In this document: piece after piece, positions 305 through 35,552 of the stretch
How the letters are laid out: every line of letters begins with the position of its first letter
Position numbering within the stretch: position 1 is the stretch's first letter
DNA from: Alphaproteobacteria bacterium
GTDB taxonomy: Bacteria > Pseudomonadota > Alphaproteobacteria > Rs-D84
DNA length: 48,150 nt
NCBI GenBank assembly: GCA_017960855.1
Contig: JAGCYJ010000013.1
Location: 1 to 48,150 of the forward strand
Direction of reading: 5' to 3'
Position numbers and translations under genes: made by a program
The notes under the pieces: generated by a model
Seen by the model: only the letters and a program-made list of their open reading frames with translations
Database searches by the model: none
Told to the model about the DNA's origin: nothing

Positions 305-751
305 ATGTCATTGTTTCTCTCATCTTATGAAAATCGTTTGGATACCAAGGGACGTATTTCTGTGCCGGCGACTTTTCGGGCTTCGCTGTCTTCTGAAAAA
401 TTCGCGGGCGTGGTTTTATACCGTTCTTTCACCAATAATTGTATAGAAGGGTTATCCATGTCGCGCATGGAACAATTGGCATCTGCAACCGATAAAATGG
501 GTGTTTTTGACGGCACTTTGGACGATTTATCGGCCATGCTGTTTGCAGATGCACGCCCATTATCATTTGACGTGACGGGCCGCATTATGATTCCGGCCGA
601 CTTATTAGCACATGCGGGAATAACGGACCGCGCCATATTTGTTGGTCGTGGAAACAGTTTTCAAATCTGGAATCCAGATGCATTTGCTCGTATGCAAGCG
701 GATGCCCTGTCGCGTCTGCGCACTGCGCGCCCTGATTTCAAGATTTCTTAA
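305..751 (+). CDS. mraZ: Transcriptional regulator MraZ
   Basis: MraZ is a ring-forming AbrB-like DNA-binding protein that normally autoregulates the division and cell-wall (dcw) cluster. The 148-residue protein is of normal family length and has two MraZ half-domains, each with the DxxGR signature: DTKGRISVP near residue 13 and DVTGRIMIP near residue 89. The start ATG has an AAGGAT ribosome site six bases upstream. The gene is odd in context: it usually heads mraZ-rsmH-ftsL-ftsI, but here it is followed at once by a strong terminator and an opposing gene, so it stands alone. The family call is secure; its regulatory target here is unknown. Confidence 0.95.
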   Translation: MSLFLSSYENRLDTKGRISVPATFRASLSSEKFAGVVLYRSFTNNCIEGLSMSRMEQLASATDKMGVFDGTLDDLSAMLFADARPLSFDVTGRIMIPADLLAHAGITDRAIFVGRGNSFQIWNPDAFARMQADALSRLRTARPDFKIS

Positions 752-823: not shown

Positions 824-3800
824 TTATTCCCAATGAGCATACCAGGTTTCGTTTTGGTTTCGATCTACGACTTCAAGTCCATCCGTTAAACATCCCGTAG
901 CATCAACATATTCAACACCACCATTCTGCTGACTGAAATACCCCTTGAACACTTTACCACTTTGCGTTGGCACATCAATCGGTCCATTACCACATCCTGG
1001 CATTACCTCAACATCAAGATCTGCATCAAAATAAACTGCTGAACCATGTACGACATACAATGTTGTTGCGCCACCCGTACCGCCATTCTTATTTAATGTG
1101 ACGGTAAAATCATAGGCAGGCCCTGATTGTGCCCACTGCGCATTACATGTTATATTACCACTTGGTGCAAACGTCGAATTGGCTGGATATGTCTGGGTAC
1201 CGCATTTCCAACCATTAAACGTCTGGCTGCTGCTTGGGGCATTACATGCGGTTGCCGGCAAAGTTGTGACAATCGCACCTGCATTAACCGTCCTTTTGCT
1301 TTCAAATGTGCTTGTTTGGGTACCGCCATTGCAACTGAATGTTACATCATACGTCGTTGTTGCTTGGGTTTCCCAACGCGCATACCATGTTTCGTTTTGG
1401 TGTCTGTCTATAACATCATAACCTTCCATTGTCAAACAACCACCATTATCTATATACTCGGTACCGCCACTCTGTTGGCTATAATACCCAACAAAAGTAC
1501 TATTGTTTTTGGTCGGAACGACAAAATCACCACTTGAACAACTATGATTATATAATTCATTTAGATTACTATCAAGATAAGTACCATCACCAGATTTGAC
1601 GTATAGTGTGCTTGTACCACCTGTACCACCATTCTTATTTAATGTGATGGTGTAATCATAGGAGTTTGTTGGCTGCCCCCATTGTGCTGTAAATGTCTTG
1701 TTGCCTTCGCATAGATATGTGGTTGCGCCGTTATCCCAACCTGTTGCATTACTACCGTTTTTCTGACCACAAACAGATACATTTTTAAGTGTTACTGTTG
1801 TCCCGTATTTGCAAGTGTCAGCTTCTATGCTATAACTGCCGTTATCACATTCATATGAGACTGTATGAGTCTGGAAAAGACATGCCGGTTTTTGATACCC
1901 ACCAACGCTACCAATATAGCTGCTGTATGACTCCGAACAACGACAATATTTTGCCACGCACCCATTATCCGTTCCATAAGGGGAAACGGAGGTACAACTG
2001 GCATCTACGTTGGCAAAACCAAAAGTCGTGTCAACATCAGCACACGGTGATCTGCATGTTCCATTATACACATAATATACTGTTTCGCATTTGCGACCAG
2101 CGGCCACACAACCACCATAAGTATTATTTGAACTTGCACTTGTACAACTTGAATCTGCCACTGAATTTGCAATATTTGCTGCAGAAGCCACGCAAGCACC
2201 GTTTGACACTTCATAACCACTGTTACAATTATATGTCCAGTCGCCGTTTGTCGGTGTGCATGAACCACCCGCCACACTGCTGTATGTCACAGGACGCGTC
2301 TTGGTACCATTGGTTATGTTTTCTGTTTCTGTCTTATTATATGTAGAACACGCCTTACATGTTGTGCCGTCTAACTCATAGTTAGCATTACAATTATATG
2401 TCCAGTTGCCATATGTTGCTGTGCATGAACCACCCGCTGTACTGCTGTATGTCACAGGACGCGTCCTGGTACCGCCAGTTATACTCTGAGTTTCCGATGT
2501 ATTCAACCCAGAACAAGGTTTGCACTGTTCACCATCTACTGCATAACCTGCATTACAATTATATGTCCAGTTGCCATATGTTGCTGTACATGAACCACCC
2601 GCAACACTGCTGTATGTCACAGGACGCGTCTTGGTACCACCCGTTATATTTTGGGTTTCCGATGTATTCAATCTTGAACACAGTTGACATGCACCATTTA
2701 CGTATTCATAGTTTGCATTACAATTGTTCGAACTGGAACCCGAGCCAGAACTGGAACCTGAGCCAGAACTGGAACCCGAACCGGAACTAGAACCTGAGCC
2801 AGAACTGGAACCCGAGCCAGAACTGGAACCCGAGCCAGAACTACCCGTATTTGCATCAGATGACGCGCTGATAAGTCCATTATATACATCATCTGCCCAA
2901 CTAAGCATCTGCGCCGGTGTAGGCGTCGTGTTAACATTGCCATTGACCGACATACATGTTGTAATTACCGCCTTACACGCATTGACCGGTATATTCTTGT
3001 TGCTGGCACTATCATAACCATTGGAACTTAAACAAGAAGACACGTCGGATATACAAGTTTCGGCATATTCAGACAATATTGCATCCTGTGATGCTTTGAT
3101 CTGAATCATCGTACGATACAAGTATTCTGAAATGACATTGTTATTTGGTTTATAATTACCCTTCTTGTCATACGAATAATTCTGACACTTGTTCAAGACC
3201 GACATACACATACCAAAGTTTCTGCCAGAATTCTGAGTATTTTTACTACTGTCATGATACCCGATCTTAAACTGCAAGAACTTTGACATATTTGTGCTGG
3301 TCTTTTCAGGATATGTACTACTATATAGTGTATCATTTATGTAATCCGCCAAGTCGCCAGTTGTATGACCATCATAGTCCCATGCAAACTTGGTACAATT
3401 TTCATCCGTACACCATGTTTGGTACAAACTGGACTTGAACAAACCCGCATGCTCAGCAGAGTATCCCAAGGATTTACCTGGCAATGAACCAACAACAATC
3501 GCGCCGTTCACGATATATTTGCCGGTCGGGTCTAAACAGTTTTCATAATCAGGTCCGCATACATAATCGTCTTGCATACAAGAATCCAATGCGCTGACAC
3601 AGCCACGCAAATCGTATTGATTCTTTTGTTGTGAAACCATTAAACGCGCTTTTTGCAAAACGGTCTTGGCATTACGTACGGTTGCTGTCATCTGATCATT
3701 TGAATCAGACAAACTGCGTTCATATGCGATACACTGTTTATCTATTTCCAAATCATACGAATTAGTAATAACGGATGCATCAACGCCCTGGGCGGTGCAA

Positions 3801-4981
3801 CTGTTCAAAACACTGGCCTTGCAACGCGATACAGCCGTCTTATATAATGTTTCGCCACGTTGATTGTTAATAGAGGAAGTATTGGTTGATGTTCCAAACA
3901 ACGCAGACAAATCAAATCCTGTACTGGAAATCGTGAAATCTAACAAATTAGACAAATCAAACGACAGAGAAGTATCAGACACACCTGACGATGTTCCAGT
4001 TCTGACATCAACAATCATGTCTCTGATTTTATCCAAATTGGTCTTAATTTGACTATTATCCGTTTTGTTACGCATTGTTTCTTCGGCTTCGGTTTCACTA
4101 AACAATGTCGTAATTTCATCAGCCGTCAAACCAATATATTGAATCTTTTGCGCAACATCTTGCAATTCTTCGGTTGCCGCCTTTAATGCCTGTTCTGTCT
4201 TTTCATAGTTAACAAGATTTTTACTGCAAGAACAACGCCCTTGGTTATCGTCCAAGATATTGCAGAAATTATCCATACATGCGGTATATTGCGCCTTGCA
4301 ATAATCGGTCAATTCAGCCAAGTTGTCCAGTTCAGATGTCGTTTCTGCAACCGATGCATTTGAAACAGAAGATTGATTGACCTTCATCGTTGCAGACGCA
4401 ACACGAATTGTCGGAACACGGGAATTGGCAGAAGAACGAATACCCACACGACCACTGTACAAATTGTTATCTTCAAATACGGCTTCTGTCTTGCCGGATG
4501 CCGTCTGCACCGTCACCGTACCAGTAGTTGCACGTGCAACATTAGCGGCATTACCACTTGTCGCACGACGCGTAGAAACATTACGACCCGATGTGTTATT
4601 TGCAGCAGCACGAGATACCGTTCCACGTGTCGCAGTAGCACGAACAGGCGTAGTCGATGTTGTACGTGATGTTGTTGTACGTGCCGCAACCACACGGGAA
4701 TTGGCGGCATCTGCACGTCTTGTGCTGACATTTGTTGCTGATGTACCAGCGGCACGCGAACCATTTCGCGTTGCTGTAATACGCGGGCTTATTTTTGTAG
4801 AAGCAACTGGTTTCTGTGCCACAACCTCTTCTTCGGCCACAATTTCGTCGGCATAATCGTCCGCATCCGCAATGTAATCCATATCGGAATACTCAAATGC
4901 GTCATCATAGAAATACGGCGAAACCTCCACAAAAGCAGGCAACGCCAGCAATCCGCCCAACACAACAACTAATCTTTTCAT
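824..4981 (-). CDS. Large secreted cysteine-rich protein with tandem modules and InlB B-type repeats
   Basis: This 1385-residue protein has an N-terminal signal peptide (MKRLVVVLGGLLALPAF), then a low-complexity Ala/Thr/Arg-rich stretch (about 60-160). Next is a cysteine-containing, mostly helical region with motifs such as CKAQYTACMDNFC (about 230-600). A GSGSSS repeat linker follows near residue 720-760, then three 55-residue Cys-rich modules ending in NWTYNC, and finally about four beta-rich units ending in ARW/AQW/AHW, which resemble the Listeria-Bacteroides InlB B-repeat. No C-terminal anchor or autotransporter barrel is visible. The likely role is a surface or exported adhesion-type protein; that is inference. 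The start has AGGGAAGG upstream and a candidate promoter. I do not recognise the N-terminal half as a named family. Confidence 0.8.
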   Translation of the reverse strand: MKRLVVVLGGLLALPAFVEVSPYFYDDAFEYSDMDYIADADDYADEIVAEEEVVAQKPVASTKISPRITATRNGSRAAGTSATNVSTRRADAANSRVVAARTTTSRTTSTTPVRATATRGTVSRAAANNTSGRNVSTRRATSGNAANVARATTGTVTVQTASGKTEAVFEDNNLYSGRVGIRSSANSRVPTIRVASATMKVNQSSVSNASVAETTSELDNLAELTDYCKAQYTACMDNFCNILDDNQGRCSCSKNLVNYEKTEQALKAATEELQDVAQKIQYIGLTADEITTLFSETEAEETMRNKTDNSQIKTNLDKIRDMIVDVRTGTSSGVSDTSLSFDLSNLLDFTISSTGFDLSALFGTSTNTSSINNQRGETLYKTAVSRCKASVLNSCTAQGVDASVITNSYDLEIDKQCIAYERSLSDSNDQMTATVRNAKTVLQKARLMVSQQKNQYDLRGCVSALDSCMQDDYVCGPDYENCLDPTGKYIVNGAIVVGSLPGKSLGYSAEHAGLFKSSLYQTWCTDENCTKFAWDYDGHTTGDLADYINDTLYSSTYPEKTSTNMSKFLQFKIGYHDSSKNTQNSGRNFGMCMSVLNKCQNYSYDKKGNYKPNNNVISEYLYRTMIQIKASQDAILSEYAETCISDVSSCLSSNGYDSASNKNIPVNACKAVITTCMSVNGNVNTTPTPAQMLSWADDVYNGLISASSDANTGSSGSGSSSGSGSSSGSGSSSGSGSSSGSGSSSGSGSSSNNCNANYEYVNGACQLCSRLNTSETQNITGGTKTRPVTYSSVAGGSCTATYGNWTYNCNAGYAVDGEQCKPCSGLNTSETQSITGGTRTRPVTYSSTAGGSCTATYGNWTYNCNANYELDGTTCKACSTYNKTETENITNGTKTRPVTYSSVAGGSCTPTNGDWTYNCNSGYEVSNGACVASAANIANSVADSSCTSASSNNTYGGCVAAGRKCETVYYVYNGTCRSPCADVDTTFGFANVDASCTSVSPYGTDNGCVAKYCRCSESYSSYIGSVGGYQKPACLFQTHTVSYECDNGSYSIEADTCKYGTTVTLKNVSVCGQKNGSNATGWDNGATTYLCEGNKTFTAQWGQPTNSYDYTITLNKNGGTGGTSTLYVKSGDGTYLDSNLNELYNHSCSSGDFVVPTKNNSTFVGYYSQQSGGTEYIDNGGCLTMEGYDVIDRHQNETWYARWETQATTTYDVTFSCNGGTQTSTFESKRTVNAGAIVTTLPATACNAPSSSQTFNGWKCGTQTYPANSTFAPSGNITCNAQWAQSGPAYDFTVTLNKNGGTGGATTLYVVHGSAVYFDADLDVEVMPGCGNGPIDVPTQSGKVFKGYFSQQNGGVEYVDATGCLTDGLEVVDRNQNETWYAHWE
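2223..2717 (-). repeat. Three tandem 165-bp repeats inside the large secreted-protein gene
   Basis: The string TTACAATTATATG recurs at 2223, 2388 and 2553, and TTACAATT again at 2718, giving an exact 165-bp period. The units share long near-identical tracts (for example TGTATGTCACAGGACGCGTC). Each encodes a 55-residue Cys-rich module. The next partial unit runs directly into the GSGSSS linker. Confidence 0.9.
2730..2842 (-). repeat. 18-bp tandem repeat coding the GSGSSS linker
   Basis: Six full copies of GAACTGGAACCCGAGCCA (with a few substitutions) plus five bases of a seventh. On the coding strand each unit adds a Gly/Ser hexapeptide, forming a flexible linker between the helical and Cys-rich halves of the protein. 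The unit is a multiple of three, so copy-number change keeps the frame. Confidence 0.95.
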
Positions 4982-5109: not shown

Positions 5110-5138
5110 TTGTATTGTTGTCCAAACCCGTTTATAAT
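5110..5138 (+). promoter_or_regulatory. Candidate promoter of the PLD-family lipoprotein gene
   Basis: TTGTAT, 17 bases, then a perfect TATAAT at 5133-5138. The predicted transcript starts near 5145, downstream of a possible TTG start at 5115, which supports the GTG start at 5163 for the gene that follows. Confidence 0.6.
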
Positions 5139-5162
5139 TCAGCACACAAAAAGGGCTATTCT

Positions 5163-6752
5163 GTGCTGTTATCAACGAAACTTTACTGGTGTTTGTTGGC
5201 GTTGCCATTGATTGGATGCGCGACGGTACCAACCACAGCCCAAGATGACCGATTAAATGGCTACACCCCAAAAATCACCGCGTCTGATTTTAACTATGAC
5301 CCAATGAAGACCCCGATTGCCCAATGCTATACCGCTGAACTTTCCAATGGCAAGGATATCAGTGGTGCAACCTTGATTGACGATGGCATATCTGCATTTG
5401 TTGTCCGTTCCGCGTTTGCACGTATGGCAACCAAGACCATTGACCTGCAAACATACATTTACAGCAATGATTTGATGTCCAAGGTGTTGATTGGCGAACT
5501 TAAAAACGCGGCTGACCGTGGGGTAAAGGTTCGTATTTTACTGGATGATTATGGCACCAAATCAGATGTCGCGGATGTTATGTTACTAAATCAACACCCA
5601 AACATAGAAATCAAGGTATTCAACACAGTCCGTCGTCGTTCAAAAATGCTGTTTCTGCCCCAGTTATTCATGGACTTTAATCGCCTGAATTCACGCATGC
5701 ATAACAAATTGTTCATTGTAGACAATATTGCGTACATTACCGGCGGTCGCAATATCGGCAGTAATTATTTCATGCCGGAAACATCTGCGAACTTTTCTGA
5801 CACCGACGTTTTGTTTATTGGTCCAATGACAAAGTCCGCGACAAAATCGTTTGATGAATATTGGAATCATAAACTGTCTATTCCTGCATCTGTATTTCCA
5901 AAGGCGAAGTCAAAACACGCCATCAAGAAACTAGAGGAAAAGTTTGCCGAAATAGAAAACAAAAGTGCCGAAGATGCGCGCCTTTACAACACCGCGATTT
6001 TGATGACTCAACGTGCATTTAAACAAAAAAGAATGGATTTTAGTTGGGGGCATGGCACGTTCTTGGCTGACCCACCGTCCAAGGTGGAAATGACTATGGC
6101 CGAAAAAGAGGCCTATCGCGGTGAAATCGTCAAAAAATTGCAAGACCTGTGGACAAAAACGCGTAAATCGGTTTATGTTTCGGCGGCATATTTTGTGCCG
6201 GGTGCCGGCGGTTTGGAATATATGTTGCACGAAGAAAACACCGGTACGCACGTCACGGTTGTGACAAATTCCCTGTCATCTACCAATTCACCCGCTGTTT
6301 ACAGCAAGTGGGAAAAGTACCGCAAAAAGTTGTTGGAATCTGGCGCAGATGTCTATGAGTTTATGTTGTCGGCGGAAAATTTGCGCGCGAAAAAATACGG
6401 GCGCGCACGTCAGGCACCTGTATTCTCGGTTCTGCACAGTAAATCCATTGTGTTTGATGACCGTATTTCATGGATAGGCAGTTTCAACCTTGATCCACGC
6501 AGTGCATATTTCAACACAGAAAATGTTGCGATTTTTGAAAGTGCCGACTTTGCGAAGAAATTGCGCGACATGATTTTGGAAGACACTAAAACATCGTGGC
6601 GTTTGACACTGGACGAAGATGGCGCCATTCAATGGACCGGCCAAAGATTATTGGATACCAAGGAACATACTTATTCGCACAGCCCGGATACCACTATATT
6701 CCGCCGTATATGGAAAAATATTTGCAGATTGATGCCTGAAAAGTTTGTGTAA
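5163..6752 (+). CDS. Phospholipase D / cardiolipin synthase-like lipoprotein
   Basis: The 529-residue protein has two HKD (PLD) active-site motifs: HNKLFIVDNIAYITGGRNIG about one third in, and HSKSIVFDDRISWIGSFN near residue 425. This is the arrangement of bacterial PLD enzymes that transfer or hydrolyse phosphatidyl groups, such as ClsC-type cardiolipin synthases. The N-terminus (LLALPLIGC) is a lipoprotein signal with a lipobox, so the enzyme is probably membrane-anchored outside the cytoplasm. I chose the GTG at 5163 because AAGGG lies seven bases upstream and the promoter sits just before it; an upstream TTG start would precede the transcript. It ends tail-to-tail, with no gap, against the next gene. 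The substrate is not decided by sequence. Confidence 0.85.
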   Translation: MLLSTKLYWCLLALPLIGCATVPTTAQDDRLNGYTPKITASDFNYDPMKTPIAQCYTAELSNGKDISGATLIDDGISAFVVRSAFARMATKTIDLQTYIYSNDLMSKVLIGELKNAADRGVKVRILLDDYGTKSDVADVMLLNQHPNIEIKVFNTVRRRSKMLFLPQLFMDFNRLNSRMHNKLFIVDNIAYITGGRNIGSNYFMPETSANFSDTDVLFIGPMTKSATKSFDEYWNHKLSIPASVFPKAKSKHAIKKLEEKFAEIENKSAEDARLYNTAILMTQRAFKQKRMDFSWGHGTFLADPPSKVEMTMAEKEAYRGEIVKKLQDLWTKTRKSVYVSAAYFVPGAGGLEYMLHEENTGTHVTVVTNSLSSTNSPAVYSKWEKYRKKLLESGADVYEFMLSAENLRAKKYGRARQAPVFSVLHSKSIVFDDRISWIGSFNLDPRSAYFNTENVAIFESADFAKKLRDMILEDTKTSWRLTLDEDGAIQWTGQRLLDTKEHTYSHSPDTTIFRRIWKNICRLMPEKFV

Positions 6753-21123: not shown

Positions 21124-21211
21124 GTGGAAATATTATATTTATTTAATTATTTTTGCGCAAGCGAAAATTAAACTACTCTTTTGAAAAATCTTTAAATCAT
21201 GTAATTTTTAC

Positions 21212-21241
21212 TTGCACCACCACCGCCATTTTTTCTACAAT
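21212..21241 (+). promoter_or_regulatory. Candidate virB8-virB9-virB10 promoter
   Basis: TTGCAC, 18 bases, then TACAAT. The implied transcript start, near 21248, leaves a short leader carrying the GGGGGAG ribosome site of virB8. Confidence 0.5.
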
Positions 21242-21266
21242 CACCATATCACAGGGGGAGAAAATC

Positions 21267-21959
21267 GTGCAAAACCGCATAGAACCGCCAATTTTGCTAT
21301 CCAGATTATTGACGCTGGTGTTCGCGGCGACACTGGTTGTGTCGGTTGTTTTGGCTGTCACGTTGTACAATATGTTCCCTCTTGATCGGCCAGAGGTGTT
21401 TTTCCTGCGCACCGCCAACCCAACAAATACCGAAATCACAATGACCCAGGTATTACCGGTTGGTGCCGATTTGGACCAGTATAAACGCGCGTTTATTGCC
21501 GAATACATCAAAACTCGCAATGAAATCAGGCCATCTGTATACACCATGAAAAAGAATTGGGATATGCAGACCGGCGTACTTAAAACTATGTCCAGTGATG
21601 AAGTTTTTGCGAATTTTGTGAATACGGCAATGTATCAAGAATTCTTGCTAAACAGCGGAAAAAACAACGACACAGGACTTGGTTTTTCCTGTTCTGTTGA
21701 ATTTCCACGTGGCAGCGTATCACCATATCGTGATGATGGTGCGACATACCTTGTCGTGTTCCGTTGGTTCTGTACAAATAATTATGGACAGACCGACAGA
21801 AAAGATTATAAGATAAAAGTGAAAGTATCAACAGATGACACCCAAAAAATGAAATGGGCGGATCATATGGAAAACCCGCTGGGGTTAAAGATTACCGAAT
21901 ATTCGGTTGAATCCGGCGACAGTGATCCATTAGATGCGTTTGTTGTCAGACGGGGATAA
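21267..21959 (+). CDS. virB8: VirB8-like type IV secretion inner-membrane protein
   Basis: VirB8 is a bitopic inner-membrane scaffold of P-type T4SS. The 230-residue protein has one membrane span near residues 11-33 (LSRLLTLVFAATLVVSVVLA) and a periplasmic domain. That domain has the VirB8-type helical pattern AFIAEYIKTRNEI followed by MSSDEVFANFV and a beta-rich C-terminal half, consistent with the NTF2-like fold. I chose the GTG at 21267 because GGGGGAG lies six bases upstream; a longer frame starts before the promoter. It is followed at 18 bp by virB9. Sequence similarity is family-level, so the assignment also rests on the neighbours. No ATPase (VirB4/B11/D4) gene is in the window. Confidence 0.75.
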   Translation: MQNRIEPPILLSRLLTLVFAATLVVSVVLAVTLYNMFPLDRPEVFFLRTANPTNTEITMTQVLPVGADLDQYKRAFIAEYIKTRNEIRPSVYTMKKNWDMQTGVLKTMSSDEVFANFVNTAMYQEFLLNSGKNNDTGLGFSCSVEFPRGSVSPYRDDGATYLVVFRWFCTNNYGQTDRKDYKIKVKVSTDDTQKMKWADHMENPLGLKITEYSVESGDSDPLDAFVVRRG

Positions 21960-21977
21960 TTGAAAGGGAAGAAAGGC

Positions 21978-23516
21978 ATGACTTTTTTAAATACAATTAA
22001 ATTGAATATATCTGTATTGTGCTTGGCATGTGTTTGTGCTGTGCCGATGTCGGCGATTGGTGCACAAACCGCATGGAACAACCCAAATGCCAACATGGCA
22101 ATGGGCAGCACAAAGCCCGGTTATGCCCAAATGTCTTGGTCCAAGGGCACCGTTTTGCCAATCAAATTGCGCAGCGGTATGGTGACGATGATTTCTTTAC
22201 CCGCAGGCGAACAAATTGAAGATGCCATGATTGGAAATGAATCAATGTTCAACATTGATGCGACCCAGGGAACAAACGTTATGTACATTACCCCAATGAC
22301 AACGACCCAGGGTGGCGATACAAATATGATTGTAAGTGGCAAAACGGGTAATCAGTATATTTTCTATCTTCGTGCAGAACCGACAAATTCGCCTGAAATC
22401 ACATATTCCCAGGTTGAAATTGTCATGGATGGCAACGCACCATTACCGACCATCAACGGTGTTGCGACGACCCCCAGTGGCAGTATGGGTTCAATATTCA
22501 AGAAAAACAAAAAATCATCCAGCAGCACAATCGGTGTTGATGGCGAAGATTATGGTTGGATAAAGTCAATGAAGATTGACCCGTCTGAATTCCGTTTTGA
22601 CTTGGATATATTCGTTCCAAATCCGGATGATTATGTAATTGCACCTGAACGCGTATGGCGCGACCGTATATTTACATACATTGACTTTGGGGACAAGGTT
22701 ATTGCCATGACCCAACGTCCGGTGGTATCCTTGTTGGTCGAAGGTGGCGAATCCCCTGTTGGTTTCCGTACCGATGGCCAAGATGGACGTTTATTGATAG
22801 TAGAGGCCGTTGGCGATATGGTTCTGCGCAGTGGTCAAAGAATTGTTTGTATCAAGAAACGTGAAAAACCGTTCTTGATTGCCGACACCAACAGTGTTAT
22901 GGCATTGGCTGAGGCAAACGTCGCACAATCTATGATGTCTGGCCAATCATTGAATACAATGACATATGGATATGATGTGACCGCGATAAACAGCGCGGGT
23001 GTAAATTACACTGGTACCCCGGTTATGATTGGCAATACCGCCAATACTAACACAACTGGCTATTATGTGCCATCTGGCTTTGTCGCGGGTATGGCATATC
23101 AACAACCGGTATCTATGGGTGCTTCATCGGGTGCCGTCACAATGATGCCTACCGAACGTGTAACCGCGGGTTCATACTTACCACAATCTAATATTCCAAT
23201 TATTTCCAGCAATCAATCTGGTGTTGCGGTTGAATTGAAATCTGATACTTCCGTAAAGGCACTGGATGATTATTGGGTTAGTTTATTGGCTAAATTCAGT
23301 GGTGAAAACGGTCAAGGTTTGCTTACACCGTATAAAGACAAAGTGTTCTTTGCGGTTGATGAACAAGGGGTTGGCGAACTGGGCTCGGGTGCCACAACAG
23401 CGCGTCTGTATCGTTTGCGCATTGGTCCAATGGCAGACATTGATGCAGCCCAAAAATTGTGCGATCAATTGTTAAAGTTCAGTGGTGCAAGTTGCAACGT
23501 GGTTAGAATACAGTAA
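21978..23516 (+). CDS. virB9: VirB9-like T4SS outer-membrane core protein with a C-terminal SPOR domain
   Basis: The 512-residue protein begins with a signal peptide (cleavage likely after SAIGA). The VirB9/TrbG core is visible: an N-terminal beta domain (about 45-150) and a C-terminal domain with APERVWRDRIFTYIDFGDK near residue 222 and GDMVLRSGQRIVCI near 279. Typical VirB9 is under 300 residues; here a Met/Thr/Ser-rich linker (about 310-430) leads to a final 80 residues (DDYWVSLLAKFSG...LYRLRIGPM...AQKLCDQL) that look like a SPOR peptidoglycan-binding domain. The start ATG has GGGAAG upstream. The SPOR tail is the odd feature: it could tether the secretion pore to denuded glycan at division sites. 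The VirB9 call is firm; the SPOR call is good but not certain. Confidence 0.85.
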   Translation: MTFLNTIKLNISVLCLACVCAVPMSAIGAQTAWNNPNANMAMGSTKPGYAQMSWSKGTVLPIKLRSGMVTMISLPAGEQIEDAMIGNESMFNIDATQGTNVMYITPMTTTQGGDTNMIVSGKTGNQYIFYLRAEPTNSPEITYSQVEIVMDGNAPLPTINGVATTPSGSMGSIFKKNKKSSSSTIGVDGEDYGWIKSMKIDPSEFRFDLDIFVPNPDDYVIAPERVWRDRIFTYIDFGDKVIAMTQRPVVSLLVEGGESPVGFRTDGQDGRLLIVEAVGDMVLRSGQRIVCIKKREKPFLIADTNSVMALAEANVAQSMMSGQSLNTMTYGYDVTAINSAGVNYTGTPVMIGNTANTNTTGYYVPSGFVAGMAYQQPVSMGASSGAVTMMPTERVTAGSYLPQSNIPIISSNQSGVAVELKSDTSVKALDDYWVSLLAKFSGENGQGLLTPYKDKVFFAVDEQGVGELGSGATTARLYRLRIGPMADIDAAQKLCDQLLKFSGASCNVVRIQ

Positions 23517-23540
23517 TTGTTTTGGGTGCGGACAAGGAAT

Positions 23541-25880
23541 ATGAGCAAAATTAAACTGCAATTTTCGGAACTGCGTAAATCCACGCCAAAGTATGTCCAG
23601 TGGTTATTGTTGATTGCCGCTTTCATTGTCGTGCTGATTTTGTTAACTTTGGTAATAACTGGTTCAAAAGATAAAAAACCAAAACAGAAATTCAGCGAAG
23701 TACCATTAAAACTTACATTATCCGAAGATTCAGTTGATTGGGTAAATGTTGCAGTTGGTACCAGAAAAGAAAAAACAATTTCCGTAAATGCGTCCGCCCC
23801 TGCCAAGGTATCTATGTCGCAAAACAAAAATATTGACGGTTTCAGCGCAACGACTACTTGCACCGCCGCCGTCATAAACGACAAGATTTCGTGCCGTATA
23901 TTCTTAACATATGAACCGACTTTGGCAATGGCACCAACAACTGTGACGTTGTCTGTATATTATCACGGTGAAAACGAACCAGAAGAGATGAAAACAGCGG
24001 ACAAAATCACCGTTGTTTTGGGCGCAACAGCACCAGAAATTGTGATGCCATATGTTGAACCGGAACCTGTCATTGAACCGGAATATGACGATTTTGATGA
24101 ACTTGACGAACCAGAACCAACAATCCGTGAAGAAATAGAGGCAATTGCCCCGGACGATCCGTTTGTTGGCGCTGAACCATTACCGACACCATCACTTGAC
24201 TTTGATTTACCAAAGATTGAACGTCCTAGTGAATCTTGCTCTGATTTCGCATTTCCTGGTTATGGTCCAAACGGCAATCAAATTGGTTGGATAAAGCCAG
24301 AACGTGGCGCATATTATTTCTATCCATTTTCTGATAAAGATTGTAAAAATCCAACGGGTATATATAACCCATCCAGCGGTATCATTACCGACATAAACGG
24401 CGGTGGTAATCGTATTGGTACCGATGCCGAACATATTGGATATGCCGGTACAGCCAGCGGTGTTCTGCCATCATTATCTGATGCGCCAAATTCACGCAAG
24501 GCATCAAATCGTGTCACAGAAGTAGCAGAAGTACCAACCGGTGGAATGGGACGCGTTGCTTTGAAACCAGCCCCCCAGCAAGAGGTTGAATTTGCGTCCA
24601 GTGGCGAAGTTATAACCAATACTGTTGCTTATGACCGTACATTTATTTTGCGCCAGTATAAGCCAATTCCAGCGACAATTGTTTCAGATGTTCGTGCCGA
24701 TCCATCGTTGTACAAAGATGGTAATACCTTGCCCGTACGCGCAACGGTTGACAGAAACGTATATTCTGATAATGGTCGTACAGTTATCATTCCAACTGGT
24801 ACATTATTATTGGGTTATTTAACAGGGACGATGCCTGGACCATATACTGCGATTGGTCGTATGGAAATAAAGTGGTATCAGTTTGTCTTGCCAAATGGTG
24901 TTGAATTTAATTTCCAAGGTGGCAACGATCCATTTTCTGGTGATGCCCAGGGTCGTGTTGGTGTCCCAGGCCGTGGCAGCACCGATTATTTGGAACAATT
25001 TGTTATGCCAATGCTGACGGCAATTGTACCTGCGGCGGTAAATATGATTGCACCTGTTGCCGATAAATTCGTCAATCAAATTGATTTGGACAACAATACC
25101 GTTGTACAAAGTGGAACCATGCGTTCATCGGAACTCGCAAAAAATGAAATTATTACGGCATGGAATCAAGTCGCACAGAAATTGCTGGTTGATATGATGG
25201 ATAATACCGTTCCACCATTTTCAATTCCGGCTGGGACACGTATCACCGTATATTCGCCGTCTGATTTACAGGTGACATGTGGCGCCCCAGGCACCAGCAG
25301 CAAAAAATGTGCGGTCGCTGCATACAGCCCCAACAGACGTGTGACACAACCAAGTACAGCACAACCAAATTATGGCGATGGTTCTTGGGTTGGCCAGGCA
25401 CGTTCGTTTGATTTACAACGTTTTTGTGAACAGGATGCTAATAAAGTGTGGAGTGCAAAGAAAGGTTTAACCGCATTAGATACCTTGGATTCTGGATATT
25501 CATATTCCACTATTTTGGGTTATTGCCAATCGCTTAATTACCAAGCAATAAATAATGCGCGTCAAGAGGCGATATATCAAAATCAACAAGATCCAAACAA
25601 TAAAAATAGTGTTGCCAGCACTGGTGGCAAAGGAACCCAAGCATATAATGAACAAGTGTTAGGATTGAAATATAACGAAGATGGTTCTATCAAGGATCCA
25701 TACGTATCGGAAAAGAAATCCGCCACAGAAGAACCAGCAGCGAATGTCATAACCTGTCAAGATGGTTTAGCACCAGATGCAAATGGTTGTTGTACCGGTG
25801 AAATATATACCGATATGGGTGAACAAGGATTTAATTGTTGCCCAGAATCTGGTGGCGATTGTTTCCCACCAATTATATAA
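23541..25880 (+). CDS. virB10: VirB10/TrbI-like T4SS core protein with long N- and C-terminal additions
   Basis: A 779-residue protein with one membrane span at 21-41 and an acidic, Pro/Glu-rich periplasmic stretch (PEPVIEPEYDDFDELDEPEP near 180). The VirB10 beta-barrel domain runs from about 363 to 580. Family marks are LPVRATVDRNVYSDNGRTVI, IPTGTLLLGYLTG, the hydrophobic antenna region around FVMPMLTAIVPAAVNMIAPV, and FSIPAGTRITVYSPSDL at the end. VirB10 spans both membranes and gates the pore. This one is about twice the usual length: residues 60-360 add an extra region, and about 200 residues follow the barrel, ending in a Cys-rich tail (CCTGE...NCCPESGGDCF). ATG start has AAGGA just upstream. 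Confidence 0.85.
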   Translation: MSKIKLQFSELRKSTPKYVQWLLLIAAFIVVLILLTLVITGSKDKKPKQKFSEVPLKLTLSEDSVDWVNVAVGTRKEKTISVNASAPAKVSMSQNKNIDGFSATTTCTAAVINDKISCRIFLTYEPTLAMAPTTVTLSVYYHGENEPEEMKTADKITVVLGATAPEIVMPYVEPEPVIEPEYDDFDELDEPEPTIREEIEAIAPDDPFVGAEPLPTPSLDFDLPKIERPSESCSDFAFPGYGPNGNQIGWIKPERGAYYFYPFSDKDCKNPTGIYNPSSGIITDINGGGNRIGTDAEHIGYAGTASGVLPSLSDAPNSRKASNRVTEVAEVPTGGMGRVALKPAPQQEVEFASSGEVITNTVAYDRTFILRQYKPIPATIVSDVRADPSLYKDGNTLPVRATVDRNVYSDNGRTVIIPTGTLLLGYLTGTMPGPYTAIGRMEIKWYQFVLPNGVEFNFQGGNDPFSGDAQGRVGVPGRGSTDYLEQFVMPMLTAIVPAAVNMIAPVADKFVNQIDLDNNTVVQSGTMRSSELAKNEIITAWNQVAQKLLVDMMDNTVPPFSIPAGTRITVYSPSDLQVTCGAPGTSSKKCAVAAYSPNRRVTQPSTAQPNYGDGSWVGQARSFDLQRFCEQDANKVWSAKKGLTALDTLDSGYSYSTILGYCQSLNYQAINNARQEAIYQNQQDPNNKNSVASTGGKGTQAYNEQVLGLKYNEDGSIKDPYVSEKKSATEEPAANVITCQDGLAPDANGCCTGEIYTDMGEQGFNCCPESGGDCFPPII

Positions 25881-33542: not shown

Positions 33543-34538
33543 ATGGCACCGGAAAAGATAGATTTAGTTTATTTATGGGTTGATGGTAACGACAAGGAAT
33601 GGCTAAAAGCCAAAAATTATTGGCTGAAAGAAATTAAAAACGAGGCCACAATTCCCACAGAATCCACTGTATCTGCGCGGTGGCGTGATAATGATGAATT
33701 AAAATATTCCCTGCGAAGTGCGGAAATGTTTGCCCCATGGATAAATCATATTTACATAATTACTGGATTTGACCAGGTTCCAAAGTGGTTAAACACCAAA
33801 AACAAAAAAATAACAATTGTCCCACACGAACAAATTATGCCTGCGGATGCACTGCCCACATTTAATTCAAGTTCAATCGAAATGTGTTTAACAAACATTC
33901 CGAACTTGTCGGAACATTTTTTACTGGCTAATGACGATATGTTCTTTGGTACGCCTGTAACCCCTGATTATTTTTATGATAAACAGGGTCGCGCAATCGT
34001 GTGGTATAGCAAGGTAAAGAAAAACAAAAACATTGGGTTTGCACTGGAAAACGCGAAAACCGATTTCAGAAAGAAAGTACTTGTTTCAATAAACAAAATC
34101 TATCAAATGTTCGGCAAAGATTATTCCGACTTATTTCCGGGACACAACATTGATCCATATATAAAATCGGCAATGATTGCGGCGCGCAGTCACCCACTAA
34201 TCACCCACGAAATGGATGTCCAGGTACGAAATAAATTCAGAATGGCATGGGAATATTCACGTTGGTTTTTCAATTTATATAATCTTGCACACGGATATGC
34301 AAAATTTAAACGGATCAGACGTTTTAAAAAGCCAAAACATTTTATTTACAATTTAATTCATCGTCGGGATTGTAAAGATTCCCCGATATATTGTGAAAAT
34401 GCAGAGAACCGTTTATCACATGTTTCGCCACCGTTATTCTGTATAAATGACACACCAAAAGTATACGACGAACTGCGCAAACACAATCACCAATTTCTTG
34501 AGAAGAAATTCCCAAACAAATCCAGTTTTGAAAAATAA
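33543..34538 (+). CDS. Stealth-family sugar-phosphate transferase, first copy
   Basis: Stealth proteins are cytoplasmic hexose-1-phosphoryltransferases that build phosphodiester-linked capsule or surface polysaccharide. The 331-residue protein has the four conserved regions: CR1 KIDLVYLWVDGND, CR2 ARWRDNDELKYSLRSAEMFA with WINHIYIITG, CR3 HNIDPYIKSAMIAARSHPL, and a short CR4-like CINDTP near the end. The start ATG has CGGGGAT upstream. It is followed at 9 bp by a close paralogue. The acceptor and sugar are unknown, and no other capsule gene lies nearby. Confidence 0.88.
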   Translation: MAPEKIDLVYLWVDGNDKEWLKAKNYWLKEIKNEATIPTESTVSARWRDNDELKYSLRSAEMFAPWINHIYIITGFDQVPKWLNTKNKKITIVPHEQIMPADALPTFNSSSIEMCLTNIPNLSEHFLLANDDMFFGTPVTPDYFYDKQGRAIVWYSKVKKNKNIGFALENAKTDFRKKVLVSINKIYQMFGKDYSDLFPGHNIDPYIKSAMIAARSHPLITHEMDVQVRNKFRMAWEYSRWFFNLYNLAHGYAKFKRIRRFKKPKHFIYNLIHRRDCKDSPIYCENAENRLSHVSPPLFCINDTPKVYDELRKHNHQFLEKKFPNKSSFEK

Positions 34539-34547
34539 GGATACAAT

Positions 34548-35552
34548 ATGACAACACCAAAAATTGATTTAGTTTATATGTGGGTTGATGGCGATGACAA
34601 AGAATGGCTGGAAACAAAAAATTATTGGTTAAAAAAAATCAAAAACGAAGCACCAGTTCGCCATGATTCTGCTGTATCTGCACGTTGGCGCGATAACGAT
34701 GAATTAAAATATTCCCTGCGCAGCGCAGAAAAGTTTGCCCCATGGATAAATCATATTTATTTGGTCACTGGATTTGGTCAGGTTCCAAAATGGTTAAATA
34801 CAAAAAACAAAAAAATAACGGTTATCTCGCACGAACAAATTATGCCCGCCGATGCATTACCAACATTTAATTCCGTTGCCATAGAAATGTGTTTAATGAA
34901 TATTCCAAATCTGTCGGAACATTTCTTGCTGGCTAATGACGATATGTTTTTCAACAAACCTGTTTCACCGGAATACTTTTATGACAAACATGATCGTGCG
35001 ATTATTTGGTATTCTAAAAATCGTAATTTTCCTGCGATTGGCTATGGCATGGAAATGGTATGTTCTGATTATAAACAGACAATTCTTGTGGCTGCGAATA
35101 AAATCGTATCTATTTTCGGTAAAAAGTATCGCAAATATGTCACATACGCCCCGGCACACAATATTGACCCATATTTCAAATCAACAATGTTGAACACCCG
35201 CAACCATCCACTGCTTTCACACGATATTGATATACAAATTCGCAACAAATTCAGAACCAATTGGGAATTGCAACGTTGGATATTTAATTTATATGATATT
35301 GTTCATGGCAAGGCCGTATTTAAACGCGCCAGACATTTTAAGAAAAGTAAGCACTTCATATACAACCTGGTTCATTATTACGAATGTAAAAACGCTCCAA
35401 CATATTGCGAAGATGCCGAGAATCGTTTGTTACATGTTTCACCACCGTTATTCTGTATAAACGATACAGACAGAACAAGTGACGAAACGCGCAAGAAGAA
35501 CCACCGGTTTCTTGAAGAAAAGTTTCCTAACAAATCTTCGTTTGAAATATAA
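34548..35552 (+). CDS. Stealth-family sugar-phosphate transferase, second copy
   Basis: A 334-residue paralogue of the preceding gene, nearly identical across CR1, CR2 and the LPTFNS...IEMCL segment, and more diverged between about residues 150 and 200 (the part after YFYDK). All four Stealth regions remain intact, so it should be active. The start has AAGGATACAAT upstream and the pair is surely one transcript, ended by the shared-core terminator. The divergence pattern suggests tandem duplication followed by change in a substrate-specifying loop; that reading is inference. Confidence 0.88.
   Translation: MTTPKIDLVYMWVDGDDKEWLETKNYWLKKIKNEAPVRHDSAVSARWRDNDELKYSLRSAEKFAPWINHIYLVTGFGQVPKWLNTKNKKITVISHEQIMPADALPTFNSVAIEMCLMNIPNLSEHFLLANDDMFFNKPVSPEYFYDKHDRAIIWYSKNRNFPAIGYGMEMVCSDYKQTILVAANKIVSIFGKKYRKYVTYAPAHNIDPYFKSTMLNTRNHPLLSHDIDIQIRNKFRTNWELQRWIFNLYDIVHGKAVFKRARHFKKSKHFIYNLVHYYECKNAPTYCEDAENRLLHVSPPLFCINDTDRTSDETRKKNHRFLEEKFPNKSSFEI

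Follow-up and report, generated by a model that had tools for sequence, protein, structure and literature searches.

A Cysteine-Rich Exported Protein Family of the Alphaproteobacterial Order Rs-D84 and the InlB-Type Tail Carried by One of Its Members

Introduction

The 48,150-nucleotide stretch of DNA analyzed here, referred to in full as the window, lies at the start of contig JAGCYJ010000013.1 from a bacterium of the order Rs-D84 (candidate genus Enterousia), an alphaproteobacterial lineage described in PMC12306168 and reported there to be partner-dependent. Near one end it carries the gene P0001, and the question raised by this locus is what kind of protein the gene encodes.

824..4981, minus strand: whole gene P0001, exported protein of 1385 amino acids with an ATG start

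The original prediction, made from the sequence alone, described a giant modular exported protein of uncertain family. Export and modularity were borne out, but the idea of a single protein was not: P0001 combines a discrete family of about 700 residues with a lineage-specific tail. Judged by sequence comparison, residues 1–711 are the local Group 1 orthologue of an order-specific exported family consisting of a signal peptide, a tether and a cysteine-rich core. The facts concerning this core family and the gain of the tail are, taken together, held with high confidence.

Results

A core family specific to the order

2954..4318, minus strand: cysteine-rich helical core, residues 222–676, with repeated CX6C pairs, an order-specific family (alignment, profiles, AlphaFold2)
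2849..2953, minus strand: ancestral C-terminal end, residues 677–711, where the closest orthologue, L039, ends (orthologue comparison)

When P0001 was searched against its own genome (645,761 bases, 60% complete), several more proteins were found to match its N-terminal half. The aligned full frames of the core members share the invariant motifs C..C-M-D..C and C.CS, with CX6C-spaced paired cysteines throughout the core. A profile, A2, was built from eight core members of this genome, P0001 among them, with none from other genomes, and P0001 fits the family so defined (CX6C-MD...RCxCS...CX6C). Profile A2 matches all 142 genomes of the taxonomic family, with 6–17 matching stretches per genome, and 189 of the 190 sampled genomes of the order, the single miss being G147; matches in the order's families f2–f6 are weaker (E ~1e-8 to 1e-35). 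A class-wide sample yielded matches in 4 of 289 genomes, every one of them a member of this order. The original prediction would have been refuted by homologues marking the protein as a common structural one of known function; homologues are common inside the order, but as none has a known function, that refutation did not come about.

That the N-terminal half belongs to no known family, as had been proposed, agrees with the database searches. For the eight core members, Pfam and PHROGs returned nothing convincing and NCBIfam no match at all, and a core profile of 31 sequences matched no PDB chain at E ≤ 1. Three candidates, each hit by one of the eight members, were set aside: NSP2-B_epitope (E 0.0009) and phrog_17106 (0.0027) were not taken as convincing, and Laminin_II (E 0.006) fell under its cut-off. 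PDB matches to the whole of P0001 lie nearly all in or near the Gly-Ser linker, the top ones being engineered fusions. No earlier description of the core family was found among the papers listed by literature searches on the lineage (RF32, Enterousia, Rs-D84), on cysteine-rich proteins and on InlB/Flg_new.

Thirty-four core-family members were gathered from three genomes: nine from that of P0001, 12 from G036 (one contig, 1.0 Mb) and 13 from G072. A tree of 32 of them, from which the L127/L139 pair (E ~1.5e-4) was left out, resolves 11 orthologue groups, each with support of 0.999–1.0 and nearly all with one gene per genome; G072 has one duplicate within one group. The genome of P0001 lacks three of the 12 paralogue groups, which its incompleteness can explain. 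From these sequences, the approximately 12 paralogues look like an old fixed set and not a recent expansion. By eye, the three genomes share the surroundings of the Group 5 paralogue (L017, L124, L133), which in each adjoins the same trio of genes for exported proteins; in the genome of P0001 one of these neighboring proteins ends in F, like an outer-membrane barrel.

Predicted fold and cysteine content

2882..3628, minus strand: well-predicted helical domain with putative disulphides, residues 452–700 (AlphaFold2 predicted local distance difference test score, pLDDT, 89.8; predicted template modelling score, pTM, 0.86)

The AlphaFold2 model of core residues 215–705 is mostly helix (pLDDT 76.4, pTM 0.55), and residues 228–676 hold 20 cysteines, in line with the predicted cysteine-rich helical half. 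Foldseek found nothing in the PDB at E ≤ 0.001 for the models of residues 215–705 or 452–700. For the 452–700 domain the best Foldseek hit in the PDB has an E of 2.5, the best VIA hit a Z of 2.9 (root-mean-square deviation, rmsd, 4.2; 87 aligned), and the best hit in the viral library BFVD an E of 1.2, nothing there reaching E ≤ 0.001. Over the whole core the best VIA match is a designed three-helix bundle (Z 6.4, rmsd 7.2, 138 aligned) and spectrin repeats reach Z 5.8; neither is convincing. These null results, obtained against solved structures and viral predictions with modelled folds as queries, do not prove that the fold is new.

Disulphide bonding within the core is likely, because the cysteine count is even in all 23 full-length Group 1 orthologues (18–32 cysteines each; L056, L058 and L064 were dropped as truncated). 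The count after residue 35 is even in 27 of the 34 core-family members, and a DsbA-type protein is encoded in 19 of 21 genomes related to that of P0001.

Export signal and tether

4928..4981, minus strand: signal peptide-like segment, residues 1–18 (sequence inspection)
4325..4906, minus strand: Arg/Thr/Ala/Ser-rich, cysteine-free segment (the tether), residues 26–219 (composition, substitution rates)

The reading frame of P0001 is open over all 1385 codons of the minus strand, and the purine-rich GAGGGAAGG precedes its ATG by a few bases. As anticipated, the N-terminus, MKRLVVVLGGLLALPAF, resembles a signal peptide; its end reads AFV|EV in P0001, and the three closest orthologues have AFA|EV there (LPAFV versus LPAFA). 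The low-complexity Arg/Thr/Ala region noted originally corresponds to residues 26–219, of which 78% are R/T/A/S/N/V/K/G (Arg 10%, Thr 15%, Ala 17%). In most core-family members the signal peptide is likewise followed by a nearly cysteine-free Thr/Arg/Ala/Ser-rich segment with few acidic residues. Within Group 1 its composition is conserved but its sequence is not, with identities of 16–60% as against 52–83% in the core. Between P0001 and three close orthologues, the ratio of nonsynonymous to synonymous substitution rates (dN/dS) is ~0.27–0.30 in the tether and ~0.05–0.07 in the core, the latter indicating strong purifying selection. By eye, a similar Thr/Arg-rich segment also begins P0003 and L015:4268-5998, two exported proteins that belong to a different family, so that the tether is probably widespread in this secretome.

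Gain of the tail in place

305..751, plus strand: mraZ, convergent neighbor, position shared with the nearest orthologous loci
5115..6752, plus strand: phospholipase-D/cardiolipin-synthase-like (PLD) gene, divergent neighbor, position shared with the nearest orthologous loci

A genome collection returned 40 loci, 26 of which (L039–L064) carry Group 1-type orthologues. These come from uncultured Alphaproteobacteria or proteobacteria and, where a source is stated, from ruminant and other animal guts, which suits the host-associated setting suggested for P0001. In 27 other orthologues (L039–L063, G036 and G072; L064, at a contig end, was dropped) 26–142 residues follow the last core cysteine, C676, versus 709 in P0001. 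The L039 protein, whose core is 81% identical to that of P0001 (83% for L040), terminates where the Gly-Ser linker of P0001 starts. The order PLD gene, core gene, mraZ is kept in L039, L040, L041 and L045 among the 26 loci examined, and in G072; the remaining Group 1 loci keep a single neighbor, are rearranged or end early, and mraZ is located elsewhere in L044 and L064. Because the flanking genes are unchanged, the tail must have been gained in place, with ~2 kb (~670 residues) inserted at the 3′ end of the old gene, between its former stop and mraZ.

A donor within the same genome, a giant InlB-repeat gene like P0002 (L018:1065-10664, minus strand; G000:C6), is likely on sequence grounds. 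P0002 encodes a 3200-residue protein that matches the module/linker region at 50% (tail query residues 2–135) and contains four Flg_new stretches (76.7 bits). The 55-residue module and the InlB-type repeats are common to both proteins, while the Thr/Arg tether and the core are, by eye, both absent from P0002. P0002 itself is an exported cysteine-rich repeat protein with a weak TNF-receptor-like match, and its many CPAG..C..G units resemble, by eye, the cysteine-rich surface repeats of protists.

Matches to the tail are found in 15 of 115 genomes of the genus. A core beside a tail is found only at the locus of P0001 and in G068, as judged from 12 fetched loci with 1.5-kb flanks, so that more fusions are possible. 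The G068 fusion is a 1714-residue protein that has both a Gly-Ser linker and InlB-type repeats; its place in Group 2 and its repeats were assigned by eye and from the tail matches. Since the Group 2 protein is also elongated in the genome of P0001 (1233 residues versus 800 and 807 in G036 and G072), tail capture has hit two paralogue groups, 1 and 2.

Composition of the added tail

2726..2848, minus strand: Gly-Ser linker, residues 712–752 (18-bp tandem array)
2195..2689, minus strand: three 55-residue cysteine modules, residues 765–819, 820–874 and 875–929 (Tandem Repeats Finder, TRF; sequence)
1877..2185, minus strand: further cysteine-rich stretch, residues 933–1035 (sequence reading)
827..1870, minus strand: four InlB-type (Flg_new/List-Bact) units, residues ~1038–1101, 1108–1202, 1209–1285 and 1290–1385 (PF09479; limits by eye)

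The repeats listed in the original prediction are all present. The GSGSSS linker is an array of period 18 bp with 6.3 copies (2730–2842), and the modules recur at a period of 165 bp, exactly 55 residues (TRF, 3.0 copies, score 577), with module-spaced cysteines at 765, 820, 875 and 930. Between modules dS is 0.60–0.95 and dN 0.13–0.28 (dN/dS ~0.2–0.35); this excess of synonymous changes over replacements fits translated, selected repeats. The module endings, CNxGY...C, are reminiscent of EGF/CCP-like repeats, but the EGF and CCP models all stay below their cut-offs on them (EGF_3, 10.5 of 28.5 bits; cEGF, 9.6 of 26.6). A TSP1-like module (GGTKTRPV...GG.C...W..C) was also considered and rejected, with no TSP in Pfam at E ≤ 10 and no TSP chain in the PDB by profile; Bacteroid_pep (6.8e-5) and PT-VENN (8.4e-4) fell under their cut-offs on the modules and were judged chance matches.

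The expected four or so InlB repeats appear as four PF09479 stretches when residues 970–1385 are searched alone (45.7 bits, E 7.2e-12, cut-off 27 bits); with the whole of P0001 as query the score is 23.8 bits, under that cut-off. The protein ends inside the last unit. As to the beta-grasp fold of the internalin B repeat, the tail gives only a weak sequence match to InlB in the PDB (2y5p, E 0.13). Pfam detects no leucine-rich-repeat family, a mark of Listeria-type internalins, in the whole protein at E ≤ 1. Nor does Pfam detect an autotransporter C-terminal beta-barrel family in P0001 at E ≤ 1, the C-terminus being an InlB-type repeat. P0001 thus resembles the InlB B-repeat (Listeria-Bacteroides) proteins in its four C-terminal units and differs from them in lacking internalin leucine-rich repeats and a recognized anchor, in having extra cysteines, and in placing its repeats on an unrelated helical core with putative disulphides. 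It also shares a gut, host-associated setting with InlB-type/Flg_new proteins of gut archaea, which two reports present as proposed, not proven, adhesins (PMC9723798, PMC7883539).

Other genes of the window and genome

Two tandem Stealth-type sugar-phosphotransferase genes (Stealth_CR1/CR2), an apparent duplication, lie at 33543-35552 on the plus strand of the window. P0003 (L022:1078-8145, plus strand) encodes 2356 residues with many IPxGLFSGI...MFxxTFxxC repeats and has no Pfam match; by eye, it has a KMYV...KKYVELS-like stretch in common with L015:4268-5998 (plus strand).

Discussion

The reading that we prefer, with a probability of roughly 0.55, is that the core protein is a disulphide-locked scaffold of the envelope or surface, here presenting an adhesive tail. 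Folding in an oxidizing compartment, the core would become a helical unit locked by disulphides. The approximately 12 paralogues would be permanent structural components of the envelope or cell surface, with their C-termini as exchangeable, outward-facing ends. In this species the Group 1 end may have recombined, via Gly-Ser coding repeats, with the genome's own giant InlB-repeat gene, so that the protein would now display three EGF/CCP-like cysteine modules and four InlB-type repeats. The most probable binding partners of the displayed tail would be other cells, mucus or glycans. We infer the surface location, the outward orientation of the tail and its role in adhesion, the last from its likeness to InlB-repeat proteins.

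Several observations weigh against this reading. Seven of the 34 core-family members have an odd number of cysteines; for one of them, the Group 1 member of G072, the frame was called too long and an upstream cysteine included. DsbB and VKOR are each found in 0 of the 21 related genomes, despite a very cysteine-rich secretome. Position −1 of the signal peptide is V in P0001 instead of A, so that cleavage may be impaired, or the base may be a consensus error of the metagenome-assembled genome (MAG). P0001 has no recognized anchor (lipobox, LPXTG or beta-barrel) and could remain periplasmic or be released. Finally, InlB tails are known in only two of the approximately 12 groups, and in Group 1 in only one of 28 sequences; because the tails are so restricted, adhesion is not the general function of the family.

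The core family could instead form a cross-linked envelope skeleton, with the tail incidental, an interpretation that we consider rather unlikely. The model for it would be the chlamydial cysteine-rich outer-membrane proteins of the OmcB type, which are exported envelope proteins of a reduced-genome, partner-dependent bacterium, as P0001, by analogy, would be. A fixed set of approximately 12 single-copy paralogues, universal in the taxonomic family and all cysteine-rich with mostly even counts, would suit such a skeleton. However, even counts indicate intramolecular closure over cross-links, and only Group 3 (L019:5028-7733, minus strand; L125; L132) is odd in all three genomes, with 39, 29 and 39 cysteines, where a free thiol for cross-linking is possible. 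Pfam gives no sequence match to the chlamydial proteins for P0001 or the eight core members, and in the P0001 family the cysteines appear largely paired and the fold is predicted to be helical. Moreover, the lineage is reported to keep MreB, RodA and MrdA (PMC12306168), so that a substitute wall is not needed.

It is improbable that the paralogues belong to a machine for secretion or cell contact, such as one built around a VirB8/9/10-type system. Many paralogues conserved one per genome would be in keeping with a machine, and the window does contain consecutive VirB8-, CagX/VirB9- and TrbI/VirB10-type genes (21153-25880, plus strand); Group 12 also lies, by eye, near pilin-like open reading frames in G036 and G072. 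Yet among the listed loci no core member was seen, by eye, to adjoin VirB-type genes, and the core has no Pfam or PDB match to any secretion component. Of the VirB-type products, the CagX/VirB9-type protein has a SPOR domain barely over cut-off and the VirB10-like protein a cysteine-rich C-terminal tail.

An assembly chimera, in which the tail of another gene was joined at the Gly-Ser repeat, is very unlikely. The join does sit in an 18-bp tandem array, where assemblers err, and the assembly is a MAG; nevertheless the frame is open throughout, both flanks are ordered as in the closest relatives, which would require two joins, and the same architecture is found in Group 2 in two genomes. Also very unlikely is a secreted effector or toxin delivered to a partner cell. 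Although the protein is exported and the lineage reportedly partner-dependent, no catalytic family exceeds its cut-off, and the core, kept as a fixed set by strong purifying selection, does not behave like a variable pool of effectors.

Returning to the preferred scaffold reading, we suggest only tentatively that this whole order of reduced-genome gut bacteria may have a fixed set of approximately 12 disulphide-locked helical paralogues with a fold unseen elsewhere, and that the set could represent a new envelope or contact structure whose members act as sockets for exchangeable adhesive tails taken from giant repeat proteins of the same genome. P0001 clearly exemplifies how a conserved exported scaffold can acquire an adhesin-like tail in place. 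The core family takes up an estimated 3% of a 1-Mb genome (12 genes of ~0.4–1.2 thousand residues each) and supplies named targets for imaging and binding studies. In uncultured bacteria thought to live off partner cells, it stands out as a candidate contact surface.

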